DNA from: Janibacter terrae NBRC 107853
Lineage (GTDB): Bacteria; Actinomycetota; Actinomycetes; Actinomycetales; Dermatophilaceae
DNA: 64,000 bases
NCBI RefSeq assembly: GCF_001591405.1
Contig: NZ_BCUV01000003.1
Coordinates: forward strand, 124,001-188,000
Direction of reading: 5' to 3'
Made by a program: the position numbers and the translations under genes. Positions 497-63,639 of this stretch are shown piece by piece. Under the pieces are notes generated by a model. That model saw nothing but the letters and a program-made list of their open reading frames with translations, made no database searches and was not told the origin of the DNA. Positions within the stretch are counted from its first letter, which is position 1. Every line of letters starts with the position of its first letter.

Positions 497-1141
497 TCAG
501 CCGAGGGCGACGGCGATGACCGCTCCGGCGACGAGGTAGGGGCCGAAGGCGAGGTGCGTCCCCCGGTCGGCCCGGCGCGCGAGCAGCAGTGCGAGAGCGG
601 CGAGTCCACCGATGACGAAGCCCACCCAGACCCCCACGACGAGGTGCGTCCAGCCGAGCCAGGCGAGCGTCGGCGCGATCGAGACCATGAGCTTGGCGTC
701 GCCCATCCCGATCGAGCGGCCGAAGAGGAGGAAGGCGAGCGCGAGCGTCCCGCCCCCGACGAGCAGGGCCGCGAGCCCGGCCCGCTGCAACGCCTCCCAC
801 TCGCCGGTCGCGGCGGAGGCGAGGGTGAGCAGCACGGCCTGCACGGGGACCAGGGGCAGGGTGATCGCGTTGGGCAGGCGGTGGACGTCGGCGTCCACCG
901 CGGCGAGGACGAGGCCGGCGAGGGCCAGCGAGAGCGGTGCCGCGAGCACCGGCCACGGCAGGTCGGAGAGCCCGCGGGCGATCGCCCACCCGACGGAGGG
1001 GGCGACCGGCAGGACCCACAGGTGTCGGGGGAGGGGACCCCCTTCGTCCTCCCGCCGGTACGTCCCGGTGCGCAGCCAGAGGTACCCGACCACGCCGCCG
1101 ACGAGCGCCAGGAGGGCGACGATGAGGGTGCGTGCGTCCAC
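497..1141 (-). CDS. Short A24-family prepilin peptidase
   Basis: A 214-residue polytopic membrane aspartyl protease of the type IV prepilin peptidase (A24) family. The catalytic GxGD motif is GMGD at residues 145-148. The partner aspartate is D83 or D85, in DADVHRLPN before a transmembrane helix. The N-terminal methyltransferase domain and its CxxC pairs are absent, as in FlaK/TadV-type short enzymes. The substrate would be type IV or Tad pilin leader peptides; no pilin gene lies nearby, so the partner system is unknown. The GTG at 1139-1141 is the best start: the frame stays open far upstream, but upstream residues are low complexity and the first membrane helix starts right after this GTG. 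Confidence 0.8.
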   Translation of the reverse strand: MDARTLIVALLALVGGVVGYLWLRTGTYRREDEGGPLPRHLWVLPVAPSVGWAIARGLSDLPWPVLAAPLSLALAGLVLAAVDADVHRLPNAITLPLVPVQAVLLTLASAATGEWEALQRAGLAALLVGGGTLALAFLLFGRSIGMGDAKLMVSIAPTLAWLGWTHLVVGVWVGFVIGGLAALALLLARRADRGTHLAFGPYLVAGAVIAVALG

Positions 1142-1252
1142 GGCGGCGACGCTACTCGGCGGGTGCCGGGGCCGCTCCCCGATCTCCACAGGTTGCCGTT
1201 GTTGCGCGTGTGACGCGTGTGTCGGGCGGGGCTTTCGCCTAACCTGCGGAAC

Positions 1253-4069
1253 ATGGCCACTCGTCCGTCGACCTCCTCGCGCAGCACCAAGGGCGCCTCG
1301 TCGCGCCCCAAGGGCAGCACCCGTCCGTCGGGTCGCACGTCCGCTGCGAAGGGGAAGACCGCCGCCCCGCGCAAGAAGGCCGCGTCCGGCGGTGGTCTCC
1401 CGCTGCCGCTGGTCGCGGTCCACAGGACGTGGGTGGGCGTCGCCCACGCCACCGGCGCCGGCGTGCGCCGGATCGGCACGAGTGCCGGCGAGATCGAGCC
1501 CGAGCACCGGCGCGACGGGTGGGGCTTCCTGGCCCTCGCGCTGGCCCTGGTCGTCGCGGTCCGCGAGTGGTGGGGCCTGTCGGGCGCCTTCGGTGACGTC
1601 GTGCACGCGGTCTTCGCGGGCACCTTCGGCCGGGTGGCGTACGCGCTGCCGATCGTCCTGCTGCTCCTCGGGGTCCGCCTGCTGCGCTCGGCCGGCGAGT
1701 CCGCGGCCGACGCTCGCCTGGGCTTCGGCACGGCGGGGCTGCTCTTCGCCGTCTCCGGCCTGACGCACGTCTCCAAGGACATCCCGCAGCCGCCGGACGG
1801 CGCCGGGCCCATGCGGGACGCGGGCGGCATCGTCGGCTTCCTCGCCGCGGACCCCCTGACCACGGCGGTCACGGAGTGGCCGGCCATCGTCCTGCTGGTC
1901 CTCCTCGGCCTCTTCAGCCTCCTCCTGCTCACCGGCACCCCCCTGCACGAGGTGCCGCAGCGCCTGGCCTACGTCCGGGCCGCCTTCACCGGGGAGGTCC
2001 CCTCGCACGTCACCAGCGCCGACGTCGCGGCGAAGGGGGACGCTCCCCAGGCCGCGGTCGCGCGGGCCCGGCGTCGGCGCACCTTCGACGACGACGAGAA
2101 CCTGGGCGAGCGCGACGGCGACACCGCCTTCGACCAGGCCGCGGTGGTCCAGCCCGCGGGGAAGGGACGCAAGCGCAAGGGCGCCGCCGCGCCCGTCGAC
2201 GCGGTCGACGAGCCGGCCGCGGATGCCGCGGCCACCGACGGTCCCCGCCCGGGGGAGAAGCGGCCGACCAAGAACCCGGTCGTCGCGCCGATCAGGAGTG
2301 CGGACAAGCCGGCCCTGGAGCCGCCGCCCACGACCCAGCTGCCGCAGCGGGTCGAGCAGCTGGCCCTGGCCGGCGACGTCACCTACACGCTCCCTGACAG
2401 CCAGCACCTCAAGCCCGGCGCACCCCACAAGGAGCGCTCGGCGGCCAACGACAAGGTCGTCGAGTCCCTGACGAGCGTCCTCGACGAGTTCGGCATCGAC
2501 GCGCAGGTCACCGGGTTCCACCGCGGCCCGACCGTCACCCGGTACGTCGTCGAGCTCGGCCCGGGCGTGAAGGTCGAGCGGGTCACCGCGCTGTCGAAGA
2601 ACATCGCGTACGCGGTCGCCTCGGCCGACGTGCGCATCCTCAGCCCCATCCCGGGCAAGTCCGCCATCGGCATCGAGATCCCCAATGCCGACAAGGAGAT
2701 GGTCTGCCTCGGCGACGTGCTGCGGTCCGACGTCGCCCGCAACAACGAGCACCCGATGGTCATGGGCGTCGGCAAGGACGTGGAGGGCGGCTACGTCATC
2801 GCCAACCTCGCGAAGATGCCGCACCTCCTCGTCGCCGGCGCCACCGGCTCCGGCAAGAGCTCCTTCGTCAACTCGATGATCACCTCGATCCTCATGCGGG
2901 CCACGCCCGACGAGGTGCGGATGGTGCTCGTCGACCCCAAGCGCGTGGAGCTGACGGCCTACGAGGGCATCCCGCACCTCATCACGCCGATCATCACCAA
3001 CGCCAAGAAGGCGGCGGAGGCCCTGCAGTGGGTCGTGCGCGAGATGGACATGCGCTACGACGACCTCGCGACCTTCGGCTACAAGCACCTCGACGACTAC
3101 AACAAGGCCGTCAGGGCCGGCAAGGTCGAGCCGATCCCCGGCAGCGAGCGGGTCATCCAGCCCTACCCCTACCTGCTGGTCATCGTCGACGAGCTCGCCG
3201 ACCTGATGATGGTCGCCCCGCGAGACGTCGAGGACTCGATCGTGCGCATCACCCAGCTCGCGCGCGCGGCCGGCATCCACCTCGTGCTCGCGACCCAGCG
3301 ACCCTCGGTCGACGTCGTCACCGGCCTCATCAAGGCCAACGTCCCCTCACGGATGGCCTTCGCCACCTCGTCGCTCGCCGACTCGCGCGTCGTGCTCGAC
3401 CAGCCGGGCGCGGAGAAGCTGCTCGGCCAGGGTGACGCGCTCTTCCTGCCGATGGGCAAGTCCAAGCCGATGCGTGTCCAGGGCGCCTGGGTCACCGAGT
3501 CGGAGATCGAGGCCGTCGTCAGCCACGTGACCGGTCAGCTCAAGCCGACCTACCGCGAGGACGTCGCCCCCGAGACGCCCAAGAAGCAGATCGACGAGGA
3601 CATCGGCGACGACCTCGACGTGCTGCTCCAGGCGACCGAGCTCGTCGTCACGAGCCAGTTCGGCTCGACCTCCATGCTCCAGCGCAAGCTGCGCGTCGGC
3701 TTCGCCAAGGCCGGTCGCCTCATGGACCTGCTCGAGTCGCGCGGCGTCGTCGGTCCGTCCGAGGGCTCCAAGGCCCGCGACGTGCTCATCACGCCCGAGG
3801 ACCTGCCGACCACCCTCGCCCTGATGCGCGGCGAGGAGCCGCCGGCGTCCACCGGGGACGAGGGCGACCCCCACGACGACGAGGACGAGGCCGTCGTCGT
3901 CACCGAGGCCGAGGCCGCCGCCGGGGACACCGCGGTCATCGACGTGCGCGAGGGATCACCGGCTGCGCCGCACAACCGCTACCTGACGGACCCCATCGGT
4001 ACCGAGGTCGTCGAGGAGTGGACCGAGGACGACGACGAGGACGCCTGGTCCCTCACCGACCGTCACTGA
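1253..4069 (+). CDS. ftsK: DNA translocase FtsK
   Basis: A septal DNA pump that clears and aligns chromosome termini at division. Of 938 residues, the first 50 are Ser/Thr/Lys-rich, then come membrane helices (roughly residues 85-225), a charged linker, the alpha/beta motor and the gamma DNA-reading domain. Walker A GATGSGKSS sits near residue 527, Walker B LLVIVDELADLMM near 641, and the winged-helix gamma domain spans about 788-850. The ATG at 1253 is preferred to the upstream ATG at 1217 because TAACCT (1240-1245) lies 7 bases before it, a leaderless arrangement. The C-terminal tail is acidic. The gene opens the ftsK-recA backbone cluster shared by actinomycetes. Confidence 0.97.
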   Translation: MATRPSTSSRSTKGASSRPKGSTRPSGRTSAAKGKTAAPRKKAASGGGLPLPLVAVHRTWVGVAHATGAGVRRIGTSAGEIEPEHRRDGWGFLALALALVVAVREWWGLSGAFGDVVHAVFAGTFGRVAYALPIVLLLLGVRLLRSAGESAADARLGFGTAGLLFAVSGLTHVSKDIPQPPDGAGPMRDAGGIVGFLAADPLTTAVTEWPAIVLLVLLGLFSLLLLTGTPLHEVPQRLAYVRAAFTGEVPSHVTSADVAAKGDAPQAAVARARRRRTFDDDENLGERDGDTAFDQAAVVQPAGKGRKRKGAAAPVDAVDEPAADAAATDGPRPGEKRPTKNPVVAPIRSADKPALEPPPTTQLPQRVEQLALAGDVTYTLPDSQHLKPGAPHKERSAANDKVVESLTSVLDEFGIDAQVTGFHRGPTVTRYVVELGPGVKVERVTALSKNIAYAVASADVRILSPIPGKSAIGIEIPNADKEMVCLGDVLRSDVARNNEHPMVMGVGKDVEGGYVIANLAKMPHLLVAGATGSGKSSFVNSMITSILMRATPDEVRMVLVDPKRVELTAYEGIPHLITPIITNAKKAAEALQWVVREMDMRYDDLATFGYKHLDDYNKAVRAGKVEPIPGSERVIQPYPYLLVIVDELADLMMVAPRDVEDSIVRITQLARAAGIHLVLATQRPSVDVVTGLIKANVPSRMAFATSSLADSRVVLDQPGAEKLLGQGDALFLPMGKSKPMRVQGAWVTESEIEAVVSHVTGQLKPTYREDVAPETPKKQIDEDIGDDLDVLLQATELVVTSQFGSTSMLQRKLRVGFAKAGRLMDLLESRGVVGPSEGSKARDVLITPEDLPTTLALMRGEEPPASTGDEGDPHDDEDEAVVVTEAEAAAGDTAVIDVREGSPAAPHNRYLTDPIGTEVVEEWTEDDDEDAWSLTDRH

Positions 4070-6948: not shown

Positions 6949-7420
6949 CGGCTCGCCGGCGGGTGCCGCCGGGCTGCTGGCCTCCCTTCGCGCCGTCGGG
7001 TGGTCCCTCGGCACCGCCGAGTCCCTGACGGGTGGTCGGCTCGCGGCGACGATCGTCGACGTCCCCGGGGCCTCCGCGGTCTTCCGCGGATCCGTCGTCG
7101 CCTACGACCCAGCGGTCAAGATCGAGGTCCTCGGCGTCGACCCCGAGCTGGTCGCCCGGGTCGGGACGGTCGACGAGGAGGTCGCGACGCAGATGGCGAA
7201 GGGGGCCGCCCGCGTCCTCGGCGTCGACGTCGCCATCGCGACGACCGGGGTCGCCGGCCCCGGGCCGAGCGAGGGACATCCCGCCGGGACGGTCTGGCTG
7301 GCGTGCCTGACCCCCGACGGATTACGGACGCGACGCCTGGCGTTGACGGGGGACCGGGACGCCGTGCGGTCCGGGGCGGTGGAGGCGGCACTGGACCTCG
7401 CTGTGCGGGACTCACCCTGA
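6935..7420 (+). CDS. pncC: CinA C-terminal domain protein, nicotinamide-nucleotide amidohydrolase
   Basis: A stand-alone CinA C-terminal (PncC) domain of 161 residues. The family deamidates nicotinamide mononucleotide to nicotinate mononucleotide in pyridine nucleotide salvage. Visible signatures are GTAESLTGGRLAATIVDVPGAS, split here as TAESLTGG and TIVDVPG, then GSVVAYDPAVK and TTGVAGPGPSEGHPAGTVW. The N-terminal molybdopterin-binding-like half of full-length CinA is missing, as in YgaD/PncC. The GTG start lies inside the end of pgsA (14-base overlap). The downstream clgR has its own promoter overlapping this gene's end. Confidence 0.9.
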   Translation: MAAADGSPAGAAGLLASLRAVGWSLGTAESLTGGRLAATIVDVPGASAVFRGSVVAYDPAVKIEVLGVDPELVARVGTVDEEVATQMAKGAARVLGVDVAIATTGVAGPGPSEGHPAGTVWLACLTPDGLRTRRLALTGDRDAVRSGAVEAALDLAVRDSP

Positions 7421-8657: not shown

Positions 8658-11600
8658 TCAGCCCCGCCCGCTCGGCCGTAGCCGCAGGCCCCGCGGCGTC
8701 ATCGTGAACCCGGCGTCGGTGAGGGCCTGCGCGAGCGGGTCCTGCGACCCGAGCACGGGAGCGCCGTCGGCCCGCTGCACCGTGAGGCGGCCGAGCGCGC
8801 CCCGGTGCACCGCGTCGGCGAGCCCGCGCGCGGCCAGGGCGAGGGACTCCTCGTCGCTCTCCCAGGACAGCAGCGTGCGCCCGCCGCGCTCGACGTAGAG
8901 GACGAGCTGCCCGTCCACCGCGACGACGAGTGCCCCCGCCTTGCGGCCGGGCTGGTGCCCGGAGTCCCGCTCGGGCCAGCGCAGCGCCGCTCCCCACGGG
9001 TTGGCAGGGTCGGTCGCCGCGAGCACGACCGGCCCCTCGGGAGCGCGGGTCGAGCGCACCTCGTCCACGGCGCCCGGCACCGCGAACTGCGAGGCCCCCA
9101 GCCCCTCGATGAAGTAGCCGCGCCGCACCTGGCCGGCCTCCTCGGCGGCCCCGAGCACGCGGTGGATCGCCGCGAAGCCGCCGGTGACCTCCTCGGCGAC
9201 GACGGCGCCGCGCGTGACGACGCCGTGCCGGTCGAGCAAGCCCTCGGCGGCCGCGTGGATGCGCGTCGTCGGGTCGCTCTCGGCGATCGGCAACGCAGAC
9301 CACCGGCCGGCGGCGCGCGAGGGCCCGCTGCGCTGAGGCAGGGCGGCACGGCCCAGCCGCGGCCGACCGCCGTACCGGCCCCGAGGGGTCGGCCGGCGCT
9401 GCGCCTTGTGCGCGGTGCGTCCACCGGCGAGCAGACCCCGGACCGGGGCAAGCGTGTCGCCGGTGACCAGCCCGCGGTGGGCGAGCGACCACAGCGTGTC
9501 GGCGAGCTCCTCGTCGTCGATCCGCTCCTCGTCCTCCGCCCGGCTGCGGGCGAGGGCGTCGGAGAGGTCGCGGAAGAAGTAGGCGCCTCCGCCGGCCAGC
9601 GCCGCGTGGACCCGCTCCTCGACATCGCCCAGACCGGACGCGTCGGGGACCGGGAGCGTCGTGTCGGCGCCGTCGGCGAGGTGCAGGCTGATCCACGCGT
9701 CGTCACCGGGGAGGCTGCCGTGGCCGGCCCAGAGCACCTGACCGGTCGCCATGAGGTCGTCGAGGATCGGCCTGACCGTGTCGTCGACGCGCGCGGGCAG
9801 GACGAGCGACTCGAGCGCGCTGGCCGGGACCGGGACCCCGCTCAGCTGCTCGACGACCCGCAGCATGCCGTCACGTCCGCGCATGCGACGCCCGACGCCC
9901 TGCCACGCCGGCAGGAAGCGTGCGTACTGCCGCGGCTCGACCGGTTCGACCTCGTGCCTCAGGGCGGCCAGCGATCGGCGCCGCAGGGTCCGCAGCACCT
10001 CGGCGTCGCAGAACTCGCCGCCCCGGCCGCCGCACTCGACGGGCAGCAGGTCGCCCTCGACGAGCCGGCCGGTCTGGACGAGGCGCCGCAGGGCGTCGGT
10101 GGCGACCGCGCGGCCGATGCCGTAGTGGGTCGCGAGGTCGGCCGCCGCGAAGGGGACGTGGGTGCGGGCATATCGTGCGACGAGGTCACCGAGCGGGTCG
10201 CTCGTCGGCTGGAGCATCGAGTCGGCGAGCCCCGGCGGCAGGCTGACGCCCAGGGCGTCGCGCAGGCGGGCGGCGTCCTCGGTGCTCGCCCAGCGGTCCT
10301 CGCCGGCGACGCGCACGGGGATGACCTGGCGGCCGCGCTCGAGCTCGGCGAGGGCGGCGCGGACGTCCTCCTCGTCGAGCCGGCTGCGTCGGTCGAGCTC
10401 GGCCACGGAGAGCGGGCCGAGCACCCGCAGCAGGTCCAGCAGGTCCTCGCCGTCGCGGGCCGCGCGCTCCGGGGTGAGGCTCTGCAGCTCGGCGGCGGTG
10501 CGCTCCACCGCGGCCGGGTCGAGGAGGTCGGACAGTGCGAGCTGCTCGCCGCGCCCGAGGAGGTCGGCGAGCAGGCTGGGGTCGAGCGTCAGGGCCGCGG
10601 CGCGCCGCTCGGCGAGGGGGGAGTCCCCTTCGTAGAGGAACTGGGCGACGTAGCCGAACATCAGTGACGCGGCGAAGGGGGAGGGCCGTGTGCTCTCGAC
10701 GTCGACGAGCGTCACCCGGCGCCCGGCGATGTGCGTCATGAGCTCCGTCAGCGCCGGCACGTCGAAGACGTCCTGGAGGCACTCGCGCACGGCCTCGAGC
10801 ACGATCGGGAAGTCGGAGTGACCGCTCGCGACCTCGAGCAGCGCCGCGGCCCGCTGCCGCTGCTGCCACAGCGGCTGACGTCGGTCGGGCCGGCGCCGGG
10901 GGAGCAGCAGAGCCCGGGCGGCGCACTCGCGGAAGCGCGCGGCGAAGAGCGCCGAGCCACCGATCTCCTCGGTGACCGCCCGCTCGACGTCGGTCGGGTC
11001 GAGGGTGATGAGGTCGAGGACCTGGGTGCTCACGGCGCCGGAGTCCGGCGCTGCGTCGAGCTCGATGTCCGGGAGGCGCAGGACGATCCCGTCGTCCCCG
11101 TGCATCGCCTGCACGTCGATGCCGAAGCGCTCCCGCATGCGCCCGGAGATCGCGAGCGCCCACGGCGCGTGAACCTGCGCGCCGAAGGGGGAGTGCAGCG
11201 CCACCCGCCAGTCGCCGATCTCGTCGCGGAAGCGCTCGACGACGATCGTGCGGTCGTCGGGCAGGTGACCGGTGGCGGTGCGCTGCTCGTCGAGGTAGGC
11301 GAGCAGGTTGTCGCGGGCCCACTCGTCGAGGCCGGCCTGCGCGAGGCGGGCGTGCGCCCCCTTCGCGTCGAGCCCGCCGACCTCGCGGAGGAAGCCACCG
11401 ACGGCGGCGCCGAGCTCCGCCGGGCGCCCGAGCTGGTCGCCGTGCCAGAAGGGCAGCTTGCCCGGCTGCCCGGGAGCGGGCGTGACGAGGACCTGGTCGT
11501 GGGTGATGTCCTCGATGCGCCAGCTGCTCGTGCCGAGGGTGAAGACGTCGCCGACGCGCGACTCGTAGACCATCTCCTCGTCGAGCTCGCCGACCCGTCG

Positions 11601-13196
11601 GCCGGGGCCGTCGCCGGACGCGAGGAAGACGCCGTAGAGGCCGCGGTCGGGGATCGTGCCCCCACTCGTCACCGTCAGTCGCTGCGCCCCGCGCCGCCCG
11701 ACGATGGTGCCGGCGACCCGGTCCCACGTGATCCGTGGCCGCAGCTCGGCGAAGTCCTCGGACGGGTAGCGCCCGGCGAGCATGTCGAGCGTCGCGTGCA
11801 GCAGCGTCGCCGGCAAGGAGGCGAAGGGGGCCGCCCGCCGCACGAGCGCCTCCACCTCGGTGACCTGCCAGTCGTCGAGCGCGCACATCGCGACGACCTG
11901 CTGGGCGAGGACGTCGAGCGGGTTGGCGGGGACGTGCAGGGCCTCGATCTCGCCGGCGCGCATGCGCTCGACGACGACGGCGGACTGGACGAGGTCCCCG
12001 CGGAACTTCGGCAGGACGACACCGTGGCTCACGGCGCCGACCTGGTGGCCGGCGCGGCCGACGCGCTGGAGGCCGGAGGCGACCGAGGGCGGGGACTCGA
12101 TCTGGACGACGAGGTCGATCGCGCCCATGTCGATGCCGAGCTCGAGGCTGCTCGTGGCGACGACGCAGGGCAGGCGGCCGGCCTTGAGGTCCTCCTCGAT
12201 GAGCGAGCGCTGCTCCTTGCTCACCGAGCCGTGGTGGGCGCGGGCCAGGATGGTCTCCTGCCCCACCCGCTCGGAGTGGATCTCGTTGAGCCGCCCGGTG
12301 AGCCGCTCACCGAGTCTGCGGCTGTTGACGAAGACGAGGGTCGAGCGGTGCTGCTCGACGAGGTCAACGACCCGCTCCTCGACGTGCGGCCAGATCGACG
12401 CCCGGCGCTCCTCGCCGGCCGCAGCACCGGAGAGGTCGCCCGTCGGCTCCCCGAGGTCGGTGAGGTCGGCGACGGGGACGACGACGTCGAGCTGCCACTG
12501 CTTCGTCGACTCGGGCTGGACGATCTCGACGGGACGGCCGCCGGCGAGGAAGCGGGCGACCTCGTCGACCGGGCGCACGGTCGCGGACAGGCCGATGCGC
12601 TGGGCGGGGGACTCGAGGAGGGCGTCGAGGCGCTCGAGCGAGAGGGCGAGGTGGGCGCCGCGCTTGGTCCCGGCGAGCGCGTGGATCTCGTCGATGATGA
12701 TCGTGTCGACCCCGCGCAGGGCGTCGCGGACCCCCGAGGTGAGCATGAGGAAGAGCGACTCGGGCGTCGTGATGAGCACGTCGGTCGGCGCCTTGGCGAA
12801 GGCGCGGCGCTCGTTCGCCGGGGTGTCACCCGAGCGGACGGACACGGAGACCTGCGGCGCCGGCAGTCCCAGCCGGTCGGCGGCGTGGCCGATGCCGACG
12901 AGCGGGGCGCGCAGGTTGCGCTCGACGTCGACCGCCAGGGCCTTGAGCGGGGAGATGTAGAGCACCCGGCAGCGCGCCTGCGGGTCCTCCGGTCGCGGCG
13001 TGGAGGCGAGCCGGTCGAGCGCCGAGAGGAAGGCCGACAGTGTCTTGCCCGACCCGGTCGGGGCGACGACGAGCGCGTGGCTGCCACCGCTGATCGCGCT
13101 CCACGCCCCGGTCTGGGCCTCCGTGGGCGCGGCGAAGCTGTCGCGGAACCATGCCGCGGTCGCGGGGGAGAAGCTCTCGAGGATGTCGTTGGTCAT
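8658..13196 (-). CDS. lhr: ATP-dependent DNA helicase Lhr, long form
   Basis: A superfamily 2 helicase, 1512 residues, the full length of the bacterial Lhr type. The N-terminal core has Walker A APTGSGKT (residues 45-52) and a DEIH box at 169-172 followed by the AGTKRG segment typical of Lhr. Then come winged-helix and beta-barrel domains and a long C-terminal region of tandem winged-helix modules. Lhr is a 3'-to-5' translocase thought to act in DNA repair, with DNA-RNA hybrid unwinding preference. It is co-transcribed with nei2, 2 bases downstream. Upstream lies a RecA-NDp-like promoter (13206-13228), fitting a damage-induced repair operon. The frame is intact throughout. Confidence 0.95.
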   Translation of the reverse strand: MTNDILESFSPATAAWFRDSFAAPTEAQTGAWSAISGGSHALVVAPTGSGKTLSAFLSALDRLASTPRPEDPQARCRVLYISPLKALAVDVERNLRAPLVGIGHAADRLGLPAPQVSVSVRSGDTPANERRAFAKAPTDVLITTPESLFLMLTSGVRDALRGVDTIIIDEIHALAGTKRGAHLALSLERLDALLESPAQRIGLSATVRPVDEVARFLAGGRPVEIVQPESTKQWQLDVVVPVADLTDLGEPTGDLSGAAAGEERRASIWPHVEERVVDLVEQHRSTLVFVNSRRLGERLTGRLNEIHSERVGQETILARAHHGSVSKEQRSLIEEDLKAGRLPCVVATSSLELGIDMGAIDLVVQIESPPSVASGLQRVGRAGHQVGAVSHGVVLPKFRGDLVQSAVVVERMRAGEIEALHVPANPLDVLAQQVVAMCALDDWQVTEVEALVRRAAPFASLPATLLHATLDMLAGRYPSEDFAELRPRITWDRVAGTIVGRRGAQRLTVTSGGTIPDRGLYGVFLASGDGPGRRVGELDEEMVYESRVGDVFTLGTSSWRIEDITHDQVLVTPAPGQPGKLPFWHGDQLGRPAELGAAVGGFLREVGGLDAKGAHARLAQAGLDEWARDNLLAYLDEQRTATGHLPDDRTIVVERFRDEIGDWRVALHSPFGAQVHAPWALAISGRMRERFGIDVQAMHGDDGIVLRLPDIELDAAPDSGAVSTQVLDLITLDPTDVERAVTEEIGGSALFAARFRECAARALLLPRRRPDRRQPLWQQRQRAAALLEVASGHSDFPIVLEAVRECLQDVFDVPALTELMTHIAGRRVTLVDVESTRPSPFAASLMFGYVAQFLYEGDSPLAERRAAALTLDPSLLADLLGRGEQLALSDLLDPAAVERTAAELQSLTPERAARDGEDLLDLLRVLGPLSVAELDRRSRLDEEDVRAALAELERGRQVIPVRVAGEDRWASTEDAARLRDALGVSLPPGLADSMLQPTSDPLGDLVARYARTHVPFAAADLATHYGIGRAVATDALRRLVQTGRLVEGDLLPVECGGRGGEFCDAEVLRTLRRRSLAALRHEVEPVEPRQYARFLPAWQGVGRRMRGRDGMLRVVEQLSGVPVPASALESLVLPARVDDTVRPILDDLMATGQVLWAGHGSLPGDDAWISLHLADGADTTLPVPDASGLGDVEERVHAALAGGGAYFFRDLSDALARSRAEDEERIDDEELADTLWSLAHRGLVTGDTLAPVRGLLAGGRTAHKAQRRPTPRGRYGGRPRLGRAALPQRSGPSRAAGRWSALPIAESDPTTRIHAAAEGLLDRHGVVTRGAVVAEEVTGGFAAIHRVLGAAEEAGQVRRGYFIEGLGASQFAVPGAVDEVRSTRAPEGPVVLAATDPANPWGAALRWPERDSGHQPGRKAGALVVAVDGQLVLYVERGGRTLLSWESDEESLALAARGLADAVHRGALGRLTVQRADGAPVLGSQDPLAQALTDAGFTMTPRGLRLRPSGRG

Positions 13197-13583: not shown

Positions 13584-14057
13584 TCAGCTGGTCGTCACCC
13601 GCTCCCGCGCCAGCATCGCCCCGACCCTGACCAACCCGACGGTCAGTCCGACGACCAGCACCACCACGACGAGTGCCTCGATCGGTCGGGTCACGACGAA
13701 GGTCGGGATCGCGCGGTCCGGCACGGCCACCGCGCCGACGAAGGCGGCGCACAGCCCGAGCCAGCTGCCGCGCATGTTGCCCCTGTGCGCGGCGATGTTG
13801 CCCCGTCGCGCCTGGACCACCCCGAGGGTGACGGTGACGAGGGTGACGGTCGAGAGGATGTGCAGCAGGGACAGCTCACCGTGGCGGATGTCGCGGATCC
13901 AGTACGAGCTGAGCGCGACCCAGATCATCAGCCCCGCCCAGACCCGGCCGAGGAGGACGTGACGGACGTCCCCCTTCGTCGGCCGGAAGAGCTGGTAGCC
14001 GCCGAGCGGCAGGGCCACGAGCGCGGCGAGCAGGTGGGCGACGAGCAGCGGGGTCAT
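13584..14057 (-). CDS. DUF2306 membrane protein
   Basis: A 157-residue protein with four predicted membrane helices, of the DUF2306 (predicted membrane protein) family. It starts with a hydrophobic helix (LLVAHLLAALVALPLGGYQL) and has the conserved RxxxGRVWAGLM and YWIRDI segments of that family. The molecular role is unknown. ATG at 14057 overlaps the stop of the MarR gene (ATGA), so it is the last cistron of a four-gene operon with MarR, the lysoplasmalogenase-like gene and agmatine deiminase. Close coupling to MarR suggests that the regulator controls it. Confidence 0.75.
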   Translation of the reverse strand: MTPLLVAHLLAALVALPLGGYQLFRPTKGDVRHVLLGRVWAGLMIWVALSSYWIRDIRHGELSLLHILSTVTLVTVTLGVVQARRGNIAAHRGNMRGSWLGLCAAFVGAVAVPDRAIPTFVVTRPIEALVVVVLVVGLTVGLVRVGAMLARERVTTS

Positions 14058-14470
14058 GGTGACTCCTCGAGGAGGGCGGTGAGCCGGCGCACGTCGCGGG
14101 CCAGGGCCTCGGGGCTGCGTCCGATGGCGCGGACGGCGTCGTCGAAGTCCCGGCCGAGGCTCGTGCCGGCGCGGTCCAGCAGCGCGCGACCAGCCTCGGT
14201 GAGCGCCAGGGTGCGGCGGTTGCCGGATCCGGGCGTCCGGGCGATGTCGATCCAGCCGTGCTCGCCCAGCCCGGTGGTCGTGCGGCTGGCGGAAGCCTCG
14301 CTCAGCCCGAGCCTCGCGGCGAGGTCACGCTGGGTCAGCCCCGGGGCGTCGCCGACCACGAGCAGGGCGAGGTAGCGCGCGTACGTCAGTCCGAAGGGGG
14401 CCAGACGCACCTCCGCGGACCGGTCGAGGGCCTTGACGAGGAGGTGGAGGTCATGGGCGAGCGTGCTCAT
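14054..14470 (-). CDS. MarR-family transcriptional regulator
   Basis: A 138-residue winged-helix regulator. After an N-terminal dimerisation helix it has the MarR pattern LTQRDLAARLGLSEASASR (recognition helix about 56-68), a wing with GNRRTLALTEAGRALL, and a C-terminal helix pair. Members usually repress adjacent genes and are released by small phenolic ligands or oxidation. There is no cysteine in the recognition region, so thiol-based sensing is unlikely. It sits 3 bases after the lysoplasmalogenase-like gene and overlaps the DUF2306 gene by 4 bases. The ligand cannot be inferred. Confidence 0.88.
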   Translation of the reverse strand: MSTLAHDLHLLVKALDRSAEVRLAPFGLTYARYLALLVVGDAPGLTQRDLAARLGLSEASASRTTTGLGEHGWIDIARTPGSGNRRTLALTEAGRALLDRAGTSLGRDFDDAVRAIGRSPEALARDVRRLTALLEESP

Positions 14471-26105: not shown

Positions 26106-26159
26106 GGCGCGGACGCAGGGGGAGGGCACCCCCTTCGTCCGACGTACCCTTGACGGGCC

Positions 26160-28715: not shown

Positions 28716-28730
28716 CGCGTCAGAGCGGTC

Positions 28731-55571: not shown

Positions 55572-56776
55572 GGTGTCTCCTTCACGGTGCGGGGCGAGGG
55601 GACCCAGGCCGAGACGGCCGTCCCCTCGTCGGGGGTGGACTCGACGGCCAGGCCGCCGCCGACCTCGCGCAGGCGGGCTCGTGTCGCCCGCAGGCCGTAG
55701 CCCCCTTCGCCGGTGGTGCTCGGTCCGGACGACCACCACGCGTCCGCGTCGAAGCCACGCCCGTCGTCGACGACGTCGACCCGGACGGTCTCCTCGCTCG
55801 CGTCGAGGGTGACGACGACCCGGCTGGCGGCGGCGTGGGTGCGGATGTTGGCGAGTGCCCCCTGGACGCACCGCAGGAGCGTGACCTCGGCGGTCGTCGG
55901 CAGCGGCGGGAGCGTCCCGGCGACGACGACCTCTGCCTCGACCCCCGACTCCTGCGCGAAGCGCTCGGTGACCCGGCGCACGGCCGCGGCGAGGCTCCCT
56001 TCGTCGAGGTCAGCGGGGGCGAGGGCCGCTACCACCCGGCGCGACTCCTCGAGGCCGCGGGTGGCGCCGTCCTCGAGGTGGCCGAGCAGTTCGCGGACCC
56101 GGGCGGGGTCCTCCTCGGCGCCGGCCGCGCGGGCGAGCAGGACGATCGAGCTGAAGCCCTGGGCGATGCCGTCGTGGATGTCCCGGGAGAGCCGGGTGCG
56201 CTCGCTCGTCGCCCCTTCGGCACGCTGCACGCGGGCGAGCTCGTCGGTGAGGGCCGCGGTCTCCTCCTGCGCCGCGTAGAGCGAGGCGATGAGCCGCTGC
56301 CGCTCGATGCCGTCCCGCACGAGTGCCTGCTGGGCCCAGGCGACGCCGAGCGCGACGACCATGCCGATGAGGGGGCCGATGATCGCGGCGAAGGAGGCCG
56401 CGCCGGTCTGTCGGACCGGCTCGAGGGCGACGACCACGAAGACGCCGAGCGAGATGAGCACGGCCGGCAGCAGCGGCAGGACGTGGCCGGCCAGCAGCCA
56501 CAGGGGGAAGGCGAGCCAGACGTTCTCGGGGGAGACGAGGACGAGGAGGGTCCACAGCAGGACCAGCACGAGGAACCAGCGGGTGCCTGCCCGGGCGAGG
56601 CGTGGGCCGACGGAGTACCAACCGATGAACGCGGCGAGCGCGGCGATCTCGGCGAGCGGGTGGGCCCCGTCCACGATCGCCCGGAGTCCGCAGACCAGGG
56701 CCAGCACGCCGAGGAGGGCGTGCCGGCCCAGCCGCAGCCACCGGCTGGTGACCGTCTGGTCGAGGGGCGCGCTCAC
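55568..56776 (-). CDS. NarL-type (HisKA_3) sensor histidine kinase
   Basis: A 402-residue kinase with about five N-terminal membrane helices (residues 15-150) and no large extracytoplasmic domain, so it probably senses within the membrane, like DesK or LiaS. The phospho-acceptor is His201 in RLSRDIHDGIAQGFS; the HATPase has NIRTHAAASRV and DDGRGFD and GYGLRATRARL. GTG at 56776 overlaps the MMPL stop (GTGA) and also follows TAGCGT by 7 bases, so it may have a leaderless promoter inside the MMPL gene. Confidence 0.9.
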   Translation of the reverse strand: MSAPLDQTVTSRWLRLGRHALLGVLALVCGLRAIVDGAHPLAEIAALAAFIGWYSVGPRLARAGTRWFLVLVLLWTLLVLVSPENVWLAFPLWLLAGHVLPLLPAVLISLGVFVVVALEPVRQTGAASFAAIIGPLIGMVVALGVAWAQQALVRDGIERQRLIASLYAAQEETAALTDELARVQRAEGATSERTRLSRDIHDGIAQGFSSIVLLARAAGAEEDPARVRELLGHLEDGATRGLEESRRVVAALAPADLDEGSLAAAVRRVTERFAQESGVEAEVVVAGTLPPLPTTAEVTLLRCVQGALANIRTHAAASRVVVTLDASEETVRVDVVDDGRGFDADAWWSSGPSTTGEGGYGLRATRARLREVGGGLAVESTPDEGTAVSAWVPSPRTVKETP

Positions 56777-58842
56777 CGGCGTGACGCTACCCGCCCGGGC
56801 CGCCAGAAGCGGTCGCCGACGAGGGCCGTCGCGGCGGGCACGACGACGGTGCGCACGAGGAGGGTGTCGAGGAGGACACCGAGCCCGACGACGAGCCCGA
56901 GCTGGCCGAGCACGACGAGAGGGAGGACCCCGAGGGCGGCGAAGACCGCGGCCAGGACGACCCCGGCGCTCGTGATGACCGCTCCCGTCCGGGCGACCGC
57001 CCGGGCGACCCCCTCGCGGGTGCCGTGCCCACCGGTCTCGGCGCGCGCCCGGTGCATGAGGAAGATCGTGTAGTCGATCCCCAGCGCGACGAGGAAGAGG
57101 AAGGCGAGGAGCGGGACCTGCACGTCCAGCGCCGCGTGTCCGAGCAGGTGCTCGTCGAGCCACGCCCCGAGGCCGATCGCCGCGAGCGCGCTCGCCGCGT
57201 TGAGCAGCAGGAGCACGAGCGGACCGACGAGCGCGCCCAGGATCAGGACGAGGACGACGAGGCTCACGAGCAGGACGAGGGGGGCGACGGTCGTGAGGTC
57301 GCTCTCGGCGGCGGTGCGGGCGTCGAGCAGCTCGGCGGAGCCACCGCCGACCAGGGCGTCGGCACCCGGGACGGCGTGGGCGCTCGTGCGCAGGTCGCGG
57401 GCGAGGTCGAGGCTCGCAGGCGTGCCGGGGGAGGGCTCGCCGATGACCGTGAGCCGGGCCAGGCCGGCGCCGTCGGTGCCCGCCGGGACGACCGTGGTGA
57501 CGCCGTCGACGGACTCGAGCGCGGAGACGGTCGCCGCGGTGCTCCCCTCGCGCGTCGTCACGGCGAAGGGGGCGACCGACCCGGCGGGGAAGTGCTCGCC
57601 GACCGTGACGAGGCCGTCGGCGGACTCGGAGGCGGTGCGGAAGGAGTCGGCCTGGGCCAGGCCGACGCTCGCGCCGGAGAGGCCCGAGGCGAGGACGGCC
57701 AGCACGGCGAGACCACCGACGAGGTGCGGCCCGGGGCGGGCGACGACGCGGCGGGCGACCTTCGCCCAGACGCCGTCGTGGCCGGGCCGGTCACCGGGGC
57801 GGGGGACGAAGGGCCAGAAGACCCGCCGGCCGACCAGGGCGAGGGCGGCGGGCAGCGCGACGAGGATGGCGACCAGGGCGATGACGAGGCCGACGGCGGA
57901 GGCCAGCCCGAGCCCACGGGTGCCGGGGACGCTCGCGAGGAGCAGGGTGCCCAGCGCGAGGACGACGGTGGCGTTGCTCGCGAGGATCGCGGGGACCGTG
58001 GCGCGCCAGGCGACCGCGAGGGCGGCGCGGTGGTCCGCGTGCTCGTGCAGCTCCTCGCGGTAGCGGGAGATCAGCAGGAGGGCGTAGTTGGTGCCTGCGC
58101 CGAAGACGAGGACCGAGACGATCCCGGCGTCGAAGGGGAGACCGCTCGCCTCGCCGACGGCCGCCGTGACCCTGCCGGCGAGCCGGTCGGCGGTCCCGAC
58201 GACCACGAGCGGGACGAGCCAGAGGACCGGTGAGCGGTAGGTGAGGAGCAGCAGGAGCGCGACCACGCCGATGGTCACGGCGAGCAGGGTGAGGTCCGCG
58301 CCGTCGAAGGACGAGGCGATGTCCGCACCGAAGGCGGGCCCACCGGTGACCTCGACGGTCAGGTCCGCCGGCGCGTGCTCGGCGACGTCGGCACGCAGGT
58401 CCTCGATGGTCTGCACCGCCGCGGCGCTGTCCTCGGTCACGGGCACCGGCACGGTGACCGTCGCGGCCCGGCCGTCCTCGCTGACGCGGGCGTGGGCGTC
58501 GGTGGCGCCGAGGTCGTCGGCGAGGTCGGCCAGGGCGGAGGCGTCGGCGGGGGAGAGGGCGGCTCCTCCCTTCGTCGCGACGAGGACGACCGGGGCATCG
58601 CCGCTCCCGGGGAAGTGCCGCAGCTGCTCGGCCACGATCGCGGACTCGGCGGTGGCCGGGTAGCCGTCGCCCCGGGGCGGTGCCTGCGCGGTGCCGAGCA
58701 GGGTGGTGGCCAGCCCGACGAGCAGGAGGGCCAGGACGAGCACGAGGGCGGCCCCGCGGCGGCCGGTCAGGCGCTGCGCGAGGGTCTCGCGGGACCTACG
58801 TGGAGGGGTGTCGGGGCGGTGAGGTCGCAGGGTCGTCGTCAT
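56773..58842 (-). CDS. MMPL-family RND transporter
   Basis: A 689-residue exporter with 12 predicted helices in two halves, each with an extracytoplasmic loop (about 60-190 and 370-500). GAGTNYALLLISRYREEL and GIDYTIFLMHRARAE carry the paired GxxxDY-like and GTNY motifs of MMPL/RND proton-relay helices. Members export lipids, siderophores or antibiotics. It is the first gene of an operon with a NarL-type kinase and regulator, which resembles envelope-stress systems such as LiaSR controlling exporters. ATG at 58842. There is no adaptor or outer-membrane partner. Confidence 0.9.
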   Translation of the reverse strand: MTTTLRPHRPDTPPRRSRETLAQRLTGRRGAALVLVLALLLVGLATTLLGTAQAPPRGDGYPATAESAIVAEQLRHFPGSGDAPVVLVATKGGAALSPADASALADLADDLGATDAHARVSEDGRAATVTVPVPVTEDSAAAVQTIEDLRADVAEHAPADLTVEVTGGPAFGADIASSFDGADLTLLAVTIGVVALLLLLTYRSPVLWLVPLVVVGTADRLAGRVTAAVGEASGLPFDAGIVSVLVFGAGTNYALLLISRYREELHEHADHRAALAVAWRATVPAILASNATVVLALGTLLLASVPGTRGLGLASAVGLVIALVAILVALPAALALVGRRVFWPFVPRPGDRPGHDGVWAKVARRVVARPGPHLVGGLAVLAVLASGLSGASVGLAQADSFRTASESADGLVTVGEHFPAGSVAPFAVTTREGSTAATVSALESVDGVTTVVPAGTDGAGLARLTVIGEPSPGTPASLDLARDLRTSAHAVPGADALVGGGSAELLDARTAAESDLTTVAPLVLLVSLVVLVLILGALVGPLVLLLLNAASALAAIGLGAWLDEHLLGHAALDVQVPLLAFLFLVALGIDYTIFLMHRARAETGGHGTREGVARAVARTGAVITSAGVVLAAVFAALGVLPLVVLGQLGLVVGLGVLLDTLLVRTVVVPAATALVGDRFWRPGRVASRR

Positions 58843-58888
58843 GGCACCCAGTCCACCGGCGAAGGGGGCTCGCCCGCATCGCGCGGGA

Positions 58889-58979: not shown

Positions 58980-61202
58980 GTGTCCTCGACTGTTGAGTCC
59001 CTGCTCGCCGCCGCCGTCGGGGGAGTGGGCGGATCGACCCGCCCGGGACAGGTCGAGATGGCCGTCGCGGTGGCGCGTGCCATCGACACCGAGGAGCACC
59101 TGCTCGTCCAGGCCGGCACCGGCACCGGCAAGTCCCTCGCCTACCTCGTCCCCGCCGTCGAGCACGCCCAGCGCGTCGGCAAGCCCGCGGTCGTCGCGAC
59201 CGCGACCCTCGCGCTGCAGGGCCAGATCGTCGACCGTGACATGCCGCGCCTCGCCGACGCGCTGACCCCCCACCTGCGGCGTCGCCCGACCTACGCGATC
59301 GTCAAGGGCCGTCGCAACTACGTGTGCAAGCACAAGGTCGAGGGCGGCTTCCCCGACGACGAGGACGGGCTCTTCGACGTCGGCGAGGCGGACGCCCGCG
59401 CCGGCTGGCTCGGCAAGGAGGTCGTCCGGGTCCGCGAGTGGGCCGCCGAGACCGAGTCGGGCGACCGCGACGAGCTCGTCCCCGGCGTCTCGGAGAAGGC
59501 CTGGCGCCAGGTGTCGGTCTCCGCGCAGGAGTGCCTGGGCTCCAAGTGCCCGATGGTCGGTGAGTGCTTCGTCGAGCGCTCCCGCGAGGCGGCCAAGGAC
59601 GTCGACGTCATCGTCACCAACCACTCCTTCATGGCCATCGACGCCTTCGAGGGGCGCCCGATGCTGCCCGACCACGACGTGCTCGTCATCGACGAGGCGC
59701 ACGAGCTCGTCGATCGGGTCACGTCCACGGTCACCGACGAGCTGGCGCCGGGCGGCGTGCGCGCGGCGGCCAAGCGGGCGCGCAAGTTCGCGGAGACCTC
59801 GGACGCGCTCGACGACCTCGCCACCGACCTCGAGGCGGTGCTCGAGGAGGCCCCCGAGGGGCGCCTGGCCACCGGCATCCCCGACGCGCTCGCGATGGTC
59901 CTCGGGCGCTGCCGTGACGTGGCCCGCGCGCTGCTCACGGAGATGAAGCCGCCCAAGGGCGAGCAGGTCGACGGCACCCGGCAGGTCGCGCTCGTCACGG
60001 TCGAGGAGGTCCACGACACGGCCGCGCGCATGCTGCAGGAGCACGAGCTGGACGTCATCTGGGTCAGCCGCGACCTGCGTCGCGGACCGCTGCTGAGGGT
60101 CGCCCCGATGAGCGTGGCGATGCGGATGCGGGAGCGGATCTTCGGTACCGGGGCGACCGACGACGACGAAGGGGTGCGCGACCGCACCGTCGTCCTCACC
60201 TCCGCGACGCTGGAGCTCGGCGGCACCTTCGACGCCGTCGCCGGCACGCTCGGTCTGCGCGGCCCGGGCGCCCCGGAGTGGACCGGCCTCGACGTCGGGT
60301 CCCCCTTCGACTACCAGCAGCAGGGCATCGCCTACGTCGCCGAGCACCTCCCGGCGCCCGGACGGGACGGGCTCGCGCCGCAGACGCTCGACGAGATCGA
60401 GGCGCTCGTGCGGGCGGCCGGGGGTCGCACGCTCGGGCTCTTCTCGTCGATGCGCGCGGCCAAGGAGGCCAGCGAGGCGATGCGCGAGCGGCTGGGGCCT
60501 GACTTCACCGTGCTCTGCCAGGGCGAGGACATGATCGGCACGCTGGTGCGCGACTTCGCGCGCGACCCCCGGACCATCCTCTTCGGCACGCTCACGCTCT
60601 GGCAGGGCGTCGACGTGCCGGGCAGCAGCTGCCAGCTCGTGCTCATCGACCGCATCCCCTTCCCACGACCCGATGACCCCCTGGCATCCGCGCGCACCCA
60701 GGAGATCGCCCGGCGCGGCGGCAACGGCTTCATGGCGGTCTCGGCCACGCACGCCGCGCTGCGGCTGGCCCAGGGTGCCGGCCGGCTCATCCGACGGTCC
60801 GACGACCGGGGCGTCGTCGCCTTCCTCGACCACCGGATGATCAAGGCCCGCTACGCCGGGTTCCTGCAGCGCTCCCTTCCCCCGTTCTGGCCGACGACCG
60901 ACCGCCAGCTCGTGCTCGGGGCCCTCGCTCGGCTCGACGAGACCGCCCCCGATGTCCTGCCGGTCGCCGACCCGGTCAAGCGCGGCCTGACCGGCCAGGT
61001 CGCCGACCCCGGCCCGGCGGGCAGCGTGCGCACCGCGGTGGTGCAGGGCGACGGGTGGTCCGTCCAGGACGACGACGAGCTGCGCGACGGCATCGACCTC
61101 GGTCTGCCGCTCACCGAGCTGGCCGCCTCGCTCGACCGCGACGAGGCCGCGGTCACCGCGCGGGCCGACACCCTCGGGCTCGTCGTCCGCACCCGCGACT
61201 AG
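58980..61202 (+). CDS. dinG: DinG/XPD-type iron-sulfur DNA helicase
   Basis: A 740-residue superfamily 2 helicase (DinG/YoaA branch). Walker A GTGTGKS (Lys51), four cysteines for the iron-sulfur cluster (Cys116, Cys185, Cys190, Cys196), DEAH at 238-241, LTSATL, GTLTLWQGVDVPG and QGAGRLIRR (motif VI) are present. It unwinds forks, R-loops or G-quadruplexes during repair. TAGGGT (58968-58973) is 6 bases before the GTG. A SOS box is not visible upstream, so damage control is not supported. It is separated from the divergent MMPL operon by 137 bases. Confidence 0.93.
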   Translation: MSSTVESLLAAAVGGVGGSTRPGQVEMAVAVARAIDTEEHLLVQAGTGTGKSLAYLVPAVEHAQRVGKPAVVATATLALQGQIVDRDMPRLADALTPHLRRRPTYAIVKGRRNYVCKHKVEGGFPDDEDGLFDVGEADARAGWLGKEVVRVREWAAETESGDRDELVPGVSEKAWRQVSVSAQECLGSKCPMVGECFVERSREAAKDVDVIVTNHSFMAIDAFEGRPMLPDHDVLVIDEAHELVDRVTSTVTDELAPGGVRAAAKRARKFAETSDALDDLATDLEAVLEEAPEGRLATGIPDALAMVLGRCRDVARALLTEMKPPKGEQVDGTRQVALVTVEEVHDTAARMLQEHELDVIWVSRDLRRGPLLRVAPMSVAMRMRERIFGTGATDDDEGVRDRTVVLTSATLELGGTFDAVAGTLGLRGPGAPEWTGLDVGSPFDYQQQGIAYVAEHLPAPGRDGLAPQTLDEIEALVRAAGGRTLGLFSSMRAAKEASEAMRERLGPDFTVLCQGEDMIGTLVRDFARDPRTILFGTLTLWQGVDVPGSSCQLVLIDRIPFPRPDDPLASARTQEIARRGGNGFMAVSATHAALRLAQGAGRLIRRSDDRGVVAFLDHRMIKARYAGFLQRSLPPFWPTTDRQLVLGALARLDETAPDVLPVADPVKRGLTGQVADPGPAGSVRTAVVQGDGWSVQDDDELRDGIDLGLPLTELAASLDRDEAAVTARADTLGLVVRTRD

Positions 61203-62184: not shown

Positions 62185-63137
62185 GCACGCCCCCCTTCGT
62201 CCTCGTCCAGGGGCCCGAGACCGTCCTCGCCGACCGTGCCGTCGACCAGGTCGTCGCCGACGTGCGCGTCGGTGCGCCCGACCTCGAGGTCGTGACCCTG
62301 CGCGCCGAGGGCTACGAGGAGGGTGAGCTCTCCATCCACGCCGGCCCCTCGCTCTTCGGCGAGGACAAGGTCATCGTCGTGCGGGACCTGCACCTGGCCC
62401 CCGACGTCCTGCAGCTCGACCTGCTCGCCTACCTCGCCGACCCCGAGGACGGCGTGACCCTCGTCGTCACCCACGCCTCGGGCAACAAGGGCAAGAAGGT
62501 GCTCGACACCCTCAAGAAGGCCAGGGCGCTCGTCCTCGAGGCGCCCGCCATCAAGAGCGACCGGGACAAGGCCGAGTTCGTCACCAACGAGTTCCGGCGT
62601 GCTCGGCGCAAGGCCGATGCGGGGGCCGTCCAGGCGCTCGTCGAGGCCGTGGGCAAGGACGTGCGCGAGCTGGCCTCCGCCTGCCAGCAGCTCGTCGACG
62701 ACACGACCGGTGTCATCGACGCCGACGTCGTCGAGCGGTACCACGGTGGTCGCGTCGAGGCCACCGGGTTCAAGGTGGCCGACGCCGCGGTGGCCGGCCA
62801 GACGGGTGAGGCGCTGCGCCTGCTGCGCCACGCGGTCAACGTCGGGGTCGACCCCGTCCCGATCGTCGCGGTCCTCGCCCAGCAGCTGCGGCAGCTGGCC
62901 AGGGTCGGGGGAGCCGGGCGCGGTCGCAGCGCCGACCTCGCCCGAGAGCTCGGGATGGCCCCCTGGCAGGTCGACAAGGCCCGCCGCGCGCTGCAGGGCT
63001 GGGGTGGCGACGCGCTCGGTCGCTCGATCCAGGCCGTCGCCGCGGCAGACTTCGAGGTCAAGGGCGGCGGGCGCGACCCCGTCTACGCCGTGGAGAAGGC
63101 CGTGCTCACCATCACGCGTGAGCGCAACGGCGGCTGA
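62181..63137 (+). CDS. holA: DNA polymerase III delta subunit
   Basis: The clamp-loader delta subunit; 318 residues. [19 protein letters not shown] is the HolA start, then the AAA-like core with [33 protein letters not shown] (cut as [17 protein letters not shown]), and the helical C-terminus with [26 protein letters not shown] (cut as [18 protein letters not shown]). The start is TTG at 62181, overlapping the AKR stop (TTGA); no ATG or GTG fits the conserved N-terminus. Normally followed by rpsT, as here. A TTG start should keep translation low, fitting a low-copy replication protein. Confidence 0.92.
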
Positions 63138-63321: not shown

Positions 63322-63582
63322 GTGGCAAACATCAAGTCCCAGATCAAGCGCGTCAAGACCAACGCGGCCCGGACCGAGCGCAACCGCGCGCACAAGTCCG
63401 AGCTGCGCACGTGGATCCGCAAGGTCCGCACGGCCGTCGAGACCGGCGACGCCGAGACCGCCAAGACCGCGCTGGTCACGGCCGGCAAGAAGCTCGACAA
63501 GGCCGTGAGCAAGGGCGTCATCCACGCCAACCAGGCCGCCAACAAGAAGTCGGCGCTGGCGAAGGCCGTCAACAAGATCTGA
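63322..63582 (+). CDS. rpsT: 30S ribosomal protein bS20
   Basis: An 86-residue ribosomal protein that binds 16S rRNA early in small-subunit assembly. [29 protein letters not shown] (in parts: [14 protein letters not shown] and [13 protein letters not shown]) and [20 protein letters not shown] at the end are clear bS20 signatures. GTG at 63322 has only a weak ribosome site (AGAAAGA). The long leader with direct repeats, after a strong promoter, is consistent with autogenous control as known for S20 in other bacteria. A 20-base-pair terminator follows. Confidence 0.96.
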
Positions 63583-63595
63583 TCTGTTGACCCCA

Positions 63596-63639
63596 GACGA
63601 AGGGGGCCGGTCACCGCGAGGTGACCGGCCCCCTTCGTC
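63596..63639. terminator. Bidirectional terminator built from the CGAAGGGGG motif
   Basis: A perfect 20-base-pair stem, GACGAAGGGGGCCGGTCACC (63596-63615), a GCGA tetraloop, then the complement (63620-63639). It separates the convergent rpsT and PemK-like genes. The motif CGAAGGGGG is at 63598-63606 and its complement at 63629-63637, the same arrangement as 27730-27770. Confidence 0.9.

Follow-up and report, generated by a model that had tools for sequence, protein, structure and literature searches.

A nonamer, CGAAGGGGG, recurs throughout a 64 kb stretch of the genome of Janibacter terrae NBRC 107853 (contig NZ_BCUV01000003.1, positions 124,001 to 188,000; hereafter the window), and we propose that it probably serves as the DNA uptake sequence (DUS) of Janibacter and of a second genus of the same clade. 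The working likeness of the motif to an uptake sequence is fairly clear; its exclusion from foreign DNA is mixed, the conservation of its sites is weak evidence, and the uptake machinery is not specific to the clade. A preliminary description of the window had raised uptake, recombination and nucleoid-protein binding as possible roles. The analysis supports this interpretation, and uptake fits best of the three because the motif lacks replichore polarity, forms convergent terminator-like pairs, is enriched between genes, is restricted to one clade and is nearly absent from an acquired island.

The window holds 39 exact copies, 22 on the forward and 17 on the reverse strand, against 100 dinucleotide shuffles that averaged 0.69 and never gave more than 3, and CGAAGGGGG is its most over-represented 9-mer under a fourth-order Markov model (39 vs. 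2.0 expected). Exact recounting reproduced the strand counts, copy coordinates and over-representation given in the preliminary description, together with its roughly ten variants (CGAAGGGAG occurs 6 + 4 = 10 times) and its G+C content of about 72% (72.4% measured). That description had made its claim depend on enrichment beyond the window and on an excess over Markov and codon-shuffled expectations, and the motif showed both. The whole assembly to which the window belongs (G000; 3,576,202 bases in 11 contigs) contains 905 + 892 = 1797 copies, one per 2.0 kb, and 14 + 8 = 22 copies of the reversed, uncomplemented word, so the excess is not specific to the window. In an 864 kb sample of G000, comprising the window and 800 kb of other stretches, 464 copies place the motif at the top of all 9-mers by fourth-order score (32.9 expected), and a third-order model expects 23. 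Within the 758 predicted genes of this sample, 176 sense and 160 antisense copies stand against means of 16.9 and 31.8 (maxima 22 and 45) in 30 within-gene synonymous-codon shuffles, so that copies in genes lie about sevenfold above the synonymous-codon null (336 vs. 49). The genes were called with a home-made codon-usage script, trained on G000 and applied unchanged to the other genomes; all six reading frames are in use, unequally, in line with the different frames noted earlier. Copy numbers in the hundreds to thousands for a motif of 9–12 bases, far above Markov and codon nulls, likewise mark DUS and uptake signal sequences (USS).

The fuller form of the motif reads G-R-CGAAGGG-[G/a]-[G/a/t]. 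In the 864 kb sample, the flank favours G at −1 (0.77) and, directly ahead of the C, A or G (0.37 and 0.43). Its information does not reach beyond some two bases ahead of the 9-mer, with weak bias further out, so the motif is no part of a longer or transposed repeat. The variants tolerated in this sample are CGAAGGGAG (124 vs. 19 expected), CGAAGGGGA (111 vs. 14) and CGAAGGGGT (66 vs. 20). CGAAGGGGG is again the top 9-mer in 455 kb of G066, a genome of the second genus (g5), in which A at position 8 is scarce (22 beside 244), T at position 9 is common (81) and A follows in 0.37. Judged from this one g5 genome against G000 and a further Janibacter genome, G208, the tolerated variants look like dialects that differ between the genera.

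Genomes with hundreds to thousands of copies, which we call loaded, were confined to these two genera. Among 186 genomes from 53 genera of the family, all 16 of Janibacter (g1; 797–1860 copies) and all three of g5 (1317–1939 copies) are loaded, with one copy per about 1,600 to 4,100 bases and at most 34 copies of the reversed word; none of the remaining 167 exceeds 80. An order-level draw of 149 genomes contained two loaded ones, the other 147 having 1–100 copies, and a class-level draw of 394 contained the same two, the other 392 having 0–231 copies; the highest of these counts, 231, belongs to a 9.2 Mb genome with 139 copies of the reversed control, and the three draws overlap. NCBI places Janibacter in the Micrococcales, Intrasporangiaceae, and the ComEC of G208 has its named counterparts in Janibacter species at 77–85% identity (J. 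indicus, J. hoylei, J. anophelis and others). An FtsK tree of 30 genomes from 25 genera unites all seven loaded genomes in one clade (support 100/98; recovered in every one of 200 bootstrap trees), the nearest unloaded relative being g88; inside this clade the boundary between g1 and g5 is not clean, G197 pairing with G233. The motif is clade-specific, with dialects that follow the phylogeny, as in known uptake sequences; the dialects were read from one g5 and two g1 genomes, and a LeuS tree, discussed below, disagrees. A 9.3 kb contig of Candidatus Janibacter merdipullorum (L058) carries zero copies, two to five being expected at Janibacter densities.

The placement of the copies provides further likeness to known systems. 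In G000, 123 copies lie in 89.8 kb of intergenic DNA (1.37/kb) and 341 in 774 kb of genes (0.44/kb); the corresponding densities are 2.62 vs. 0.48/kb in G208 and 2.49 vs. 0.34/kb in G066, an intergenic density 3–7 times the genic one across the three genomes and a preference for permissive places like that of DUS and USS. Within spacers of up to 1 kb, density is 2.86/kb between convergent, 2.02/kb between co-oriented and 0.98/kb between divergent genes. Pairs of copies within 50 bp were compared with 200 trials of random placement that kept the coding and intergenic counts. Convergent pairs numbered 24, 23 and 13 in G000, G208 and G066, respectively, vs. 3.8, 4.3 and 4.2 at random (largest 12, 9 and 11); divergent pairs numbered 9, 4 and 8 (3.8, 4.1 and 4.5 at random), and tandem pairs 3, 1 and 6 (7.9, 8.5 and 8.3 at random). 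In the G208 sets used for the placement, pair and conservation tests, 5 kb are counted twice through the overlap of L047 with L114. Many of the convergent pairs form long hairpins, putative terminators, for example at 27730–27770 and 63598–63637 of the window. Convergent pairs in terminators also mark the known uptake sequences: the consulted sections of PMC3630211 and PMC2397512 describe inverted uptake-sequence pairs of Neisseria that double as terminators. The copies in the window, identified as exact CGAAGGGGG by word count, are as follows:

1038–1046, reverse strand, copy in predicted gene 497–1189
2031–2039, forward strand, copy in the FtsK-like gene (ftsK)
7197–7205, forward strand, copy in a cinA-like gene
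10673–10681, forward strand, copy in helicase gene 8658–13196
11183–11191, forward strand, copy in helicase gene 8658–13196
11357–11365, reverse strand, copy in helicase gene 8658–13196
11822–11830, forward strand, copy in helicase gene 8658–13196
13970–13978, reverse strand, exact copy
14392–14400, forward strand, exact copy
15609–15617, reverse strand, exact copy
15698–15706, reverse strand, exact copy
17913–17921, forward strand, exact copy
18090–18098, reverse strand, exact copy
22798–22806, forward strand, exact copy
26129–26137, reverse strand, intergenic copy
27559–27567, forward strand, copy in miaB
27730–27770, convergent pair (27730–27738 forward, 27762–27770 reverse), perfect hairpin 3' of miaB, fold −42.1 kcal/mol
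28680–28717, hairpin by word match and fold, exact copy (28709–28717 reverse) with one-mismatch CCAAGGGGG (28680–28688 forward)
30757–30765, forward strand, copy in miaA
33920–33928, forward strand, exact copy
37293–37301, forward strand, copy in a glycerol-3-phosphate dehydrogenase-like gene
39403–39411, forward strand, exact copy
41578–41586, reverse strand, exact copy
42791–42799, forward strand, exact copy
45342–45350, reverse strand, exact copy
46171–46179, forward strand, exact copy
46539–46547, reverse strand, intergenic copy
47931–47939, forward strand, exact copy
49467–49475, forward strand, exact copy
49825–49833, forward strand, exact copy
51062–51070, reverse strand, exact copy
55701–55709, reverse strand, exact copy
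57564–57572, forward strand, exact copy
58860–58868, forward strand, intergenic copy
60301–60309, reverse strand, exact copy
62191–62199, reverse strand, intergenic copy
63598–63637, convergent pair (63598–63606 forward, 63629–63637 reverse), perfect hairpin just 3' of the ribosomal protein S20 gene (63322–63582; S20 by Pfam), fold −48.4 kcal/mol

Both strands carry the motif without replichore polarity, again as in DUS and USS. Besides the balanced genome-wide count of G000 (905 vs. 892), 20 stretches of 20 kb taken at even intervals from G208, whose genome is a single contig, contain, in a set free of the overlap mentioned above, 139 forward and 133 reverse copies (37:24, 36:37, 25:36 and 41:36 by quarters). 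This answers the check for strand bias by replichore that the preliminary description had proposed, and it tells against the motif being an FtsK-orienting site or a Chi-like site of the usual biased kind.

According to a 2025 paper, in the part available to us, Neisseriaceae and Pasteurellaceae, both Gram-negative, are the only families known to have DNA uptake sequences (PMC12616744). The neisserial DUS, which is read by ComP, resembles the Janibacter motif in being short, non-palindromic and present by the thousand, in its intergenic enrichment, convergent terminator pairs and clade-specific dialects, and in its rarity in acquired DNA (PMC3630211 and PMC2397512, in the sections consulted). 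However, the two motifs are unrelated, the host here is a Gram-positive with high G+C content, and the candidate receptors are Tad pilins. The USS of Pasteurellaceae likewise has a 9-base core and occurs in types by subclade (PMC12616744, same part), whereas the Janibacter motif is unrelated to it and lacks its discontinuous AT-rich flank, information ending about two bases before the core.

A host-encoded machine for DNA uptake, another feature of such systems, is predicted from the gene content. ComEA with SLBB and HHH domains is encoded before comEC in G208, G200, G066 and G234, and in G000 a full-length ComEA relative (69% identity) precedes the start of comEC; recA lies inside the window. 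The tad-1 locus of G000 encodes a CpaE-like protein, TadA (TIGR03819), TadB, as identified from its position, a T2SSF-domain protein, a small pilin-like DUF4244 protein, TadE (NF041390), an Rv3654c-like protein and a neighbouring helicase, while tad-2 encodes a T2SSE ATPase, a pair of T2SSF proteins, TadE and a TadG-like protein, along with two small proteins that have no match in Pfam. The arrangement resembles that of Micrococcus luteus, which has comEA, comEC and two tad loci ordered tadA-B-C-flp-tadE-tadG-like, and in which comEC and both tad loci are essential for transformation (PMC4322843, consulted in part). By contrast, the consulted part of that paper describes no uptake sequence, and among the matches listed in the literature searched no account of competence in Janibacter was found. 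Three further Tad-like clusters were seen by eye in G000 (L129–L131; C7:1290001-1320000, C10:56001-76000), one of them among plasmid- or conjugation-like genes, and one more T2SSE match lies at C7:1183478. In the unloaded genome G017 (C1:2162458-2223435), the tad-1 tadA match is partial and about 60 kb from tadE, and the locus seems to be split by an insertion.

We envisage a sequence of events in which (i) the surface Tad/Flp pilus would bind DNA bearing the motif; (ii) pilus retraction would deliver this DNA to ComEA and ComEC; (iii) RecA would recombine the imported DNA into the chromosome; and (iv) motifs would accumulate by biased transformation, a form of molecular drive, wherever they do little harm, because fragments bearing them would be taken up preferentially. 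With less assurance, we suggest that the receptor could be the TadE minor pilin of tad-1, which has a second, C-terminal cysteine in this clade. In other systems, the uptake receptors known or predicted are minor pilins whose loops are held by disulfides, as described in the consulted part of PMC12616744. A C-terminal cysteine is present in TadE of all 19 loaded genomes, where it lies in a CSSTAR-like stretch, and in one of 37 unloaded ones, a set in which the unloaded G169 scores low and may represent another pilin; the first cysteine, in the helix, is present in 19/19 and, by reading, in 29/37, respectively. In an AlphaFold2 model (mean pLDDT 88), TadE is composed of two helices, one long and one short, and three strands, with the second cysteine (residue 97) in the last strand. 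TadE of tad-1 is a candidate receptor in the sense of a lead and nothing beyond it. A wider possibility is that DNA uptake sequences arose independently a third time, and for the first time in Gram-positives, here with a Tad/Flp pilus in place of a type IVa pilus reading the tag through TadE, whose clade-specific second cysteine would brace the DNA-binding face by a disulfide as in ComP; we hold this extended scenario tentatively, at somewhat under even chances.

Several observations weigh against the motif being an uptake sequence. The machinery is not clade-specific: comEC is present in 35/35 genomes tested and TadE in 26/26 and 30/30, loaded or not, so these parts, common across the family, would permit uptake and do not explain the motif. 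Since the loaded genomes form one clade, the TadE cysteine counts as one shared trait, confounded with ancestry, and the sole unloaded genome possessing it, G304, has 41 motif copies. A Foldseek search with the TadE model returned no solved structural neighbour, none at E 0.001 (best E 0.75). Motif density tracks G+C content (rho 0.37), and codon typicality was no predictor of it in the predicted genes of G000. In a LeuS tree built from the same set, the loaded genomes do not come together, two of seven being astray: LeuS of G066 and G197 (loci L178 and L180) groups among unloaded genera, which most simply suggests transfer of leuS, and we prefer the FtsK tree because genus labels agree better with it. 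No paper on transformation of Janibacter was found among the matches listed in the literature searched. Matches listed there for the motif string look like chance by title, and, as the preliminary description had stated, we found no such sequence described for actinobacteria among the matches listed, in a literature with poor coverage of subscription journals and bioRxiv preprints.

A further objection concerns the window strain itself. Its comEC is broken into two parts, at C6:460902-462488 and at C6:551462-552280, that lie 89.0 kb apart (L046, L132, L133, L148). Pfam domains of capsid, tail and resolvase proteins occur in the insertion, and copies of a serine integrase are spaced 44.5 kb apart, the second being identical over the first 2.9 kb, the part compared. 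As 89.0 kb is about twice this period, two tandem 44.5 kb prophage copies appear to sit in comEC, and the strain is probably not transformable now. In 14 other loaded genomes examined, comEC is an open frame of 801–1060 aa. Prophages that break competence genes have been reported in other bacteria (PMC7029219, in the part consulted). Searches of viral contigs yielded no relative of the prophage capsid and one of its integrase (37% identity); 95 phage records contain capsids with less than 60% identity to that of the prophage. Searched against plasmids, a 12 kb part of the window gave 15 records; the 10 of these that were listed were ftsK, helicase or unannotated matches.

The preliminary description had also suggested looking for absence of the motif from prophages and islands. 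Near absence was observed for an island of 28.6 kb (C7:967293-995852 of G000; L031, L032), whose single inner copy, at 974174, opens the longest motif-free gap of the sample (21.7 kb, C7:974174 to C7:995852, G+C 0.653), and a partial depletion for the prophage. The island encodes an N6 methylase and an integrase-core transposase before the gap (970–972.4 kb), a type I restriction R subunit (974–977 kb), a Mutator-family transposase, a resolvase fragment, and DsbD-like and cation efflux proteins. Two oppositely oriented transposase genes in it share their first 70 residues, one being of the Mutator family by domain scan. The 44.5 kb prophage holds eight copies, threefold below the chromosome (P 1.6e-4) and above chance (P 3e-5), which counts against the uptake proposal. 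The picture of exclusion from foreign DNA is mixed: the island supports it, the prophage only in part.

Comparison of sites between genomes is similarly equivocal. Between G000 and G208 (84% identity over 120 kb), 36 of 61 motif sites are shared (59%), the background being 31.5% for all 9-mers and 49.8% for other AAGG/CCTT 9-mers, and five of eight one-step differences are the tolerated G-to-A change at position 8. Other pairs are at or below background (3/14 with G200, 0/2 in loci of named Janibacter, 1/9 in g5 and 1/8 in unloaded genomes). Site conservation is weak evidence, a modest excess that would not stand alone. The total of copies thus persists while individual sites turn over, which is what drive by biased uptake would lead one to expect.

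Among other explanations, the one that survives best, and is still unlikely, is an upkeep motif resembling the highly iterated palindrome HIP1 of cyanobacteria, which a nucleoid protein, methyltransferase or repair bias would keep common without uptake. HIP1 is likewise a very frequent, short and lineage-limited motif, and the even, Poisson-like spread of CGAAGGGGG (variance/mean 1.05 per 10 kb in the G000 sample) and its eight copies even inside the prophage would suit upkeep. However, HIP1 is palindromic and CGAAGGGGG is not; we know of no terminator pairs formed by HIP1, and upkeep would not explain why convergent pairs look like terminators or why copies are enriched at gene ends, nor does it fit the abrupt appearance in one clade and the near absence from the acquired island. 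A Chi-like site that steers RecBCD or an AdnAB-type nuclease in recombination is less probable again: the motif is short, G-rich, non-palindromic, rich in the chromosome and poor in one island, yet it shows none of the orientation by replichore expected of Chi (905 vs. 892 in G000; 139 vs. 133 in G208), its number jumps within one family from no more than 80 copies to 797 or more, and convergent pairs at gene ends would not be expected; we reject this reading too. The ftsK gene in the window and the GAAGGG shared with SpoIIIE recognition sequences (SRS) might point to a sequence orienting FtsK or SpoIIIE. Such sites, SRS and the FtsK-orienting polar sequences (KOPS), are polar from origin to terminus, and with strands balanced genome-wide in G000 and no polarity in the quarters of G208 we reject this very improbable reading. 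We give as little credence to a mobile family of repetitive extragenic palindromic (REP) elements or miniature inverted-repeat transposable elements (MITEs), or simply to intrinsic terminators: some copies do form hairpins at gene ends, but 341 of 464 sampled copies are inside genes and only 24 convergent pairs of ≤50 bp occur in 864 kb, and a mobile repeat is rejected since flanks beyond the core are not conserved. That the motif is a side effect of codon usage or base composition, for which the G+C-rich genome and the correlation of density with G+C might speak, is dismissed as next to impossible by the reversed word (22 vs. 1797), by synonymous shuffling (336 vs. 49) and by the at most 80 copies in other genomes of the family.

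Other words were also over-represented. AGTGCCT occurs 11 times, scattered over both strands of the window (1.1 expected, fourth-order model), and G000 has an excess of CCCTAGGG (62 counted over both strands, 5.1 expected). G208 shows a strong excess of the palindrome ACCCTAGGGT, with 17 sites in the sampled loci, often paired about 42 bases apart (for example L107:9734-9743 and 9776-9785; L124:8167-8219); a single site occurs in all sampled G000 loci, and none in the sampled loci of the other genomes.

If CGAAGGGGG is indeed an uptake sequence, Janibacter and the second genus would represent a third lineage with tags for self-DNA and the first in Gram-positives, in another phylum and with another pilus. 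The origin of such systems would then be open to study, and approachable because the nearest unloaded sister in the FtsK tree, g88, is available for comparison. Janibacter would be worth testing for natural transformation, and the same recipe of counts, convergent pairs and dialects could be applied to other phyla.

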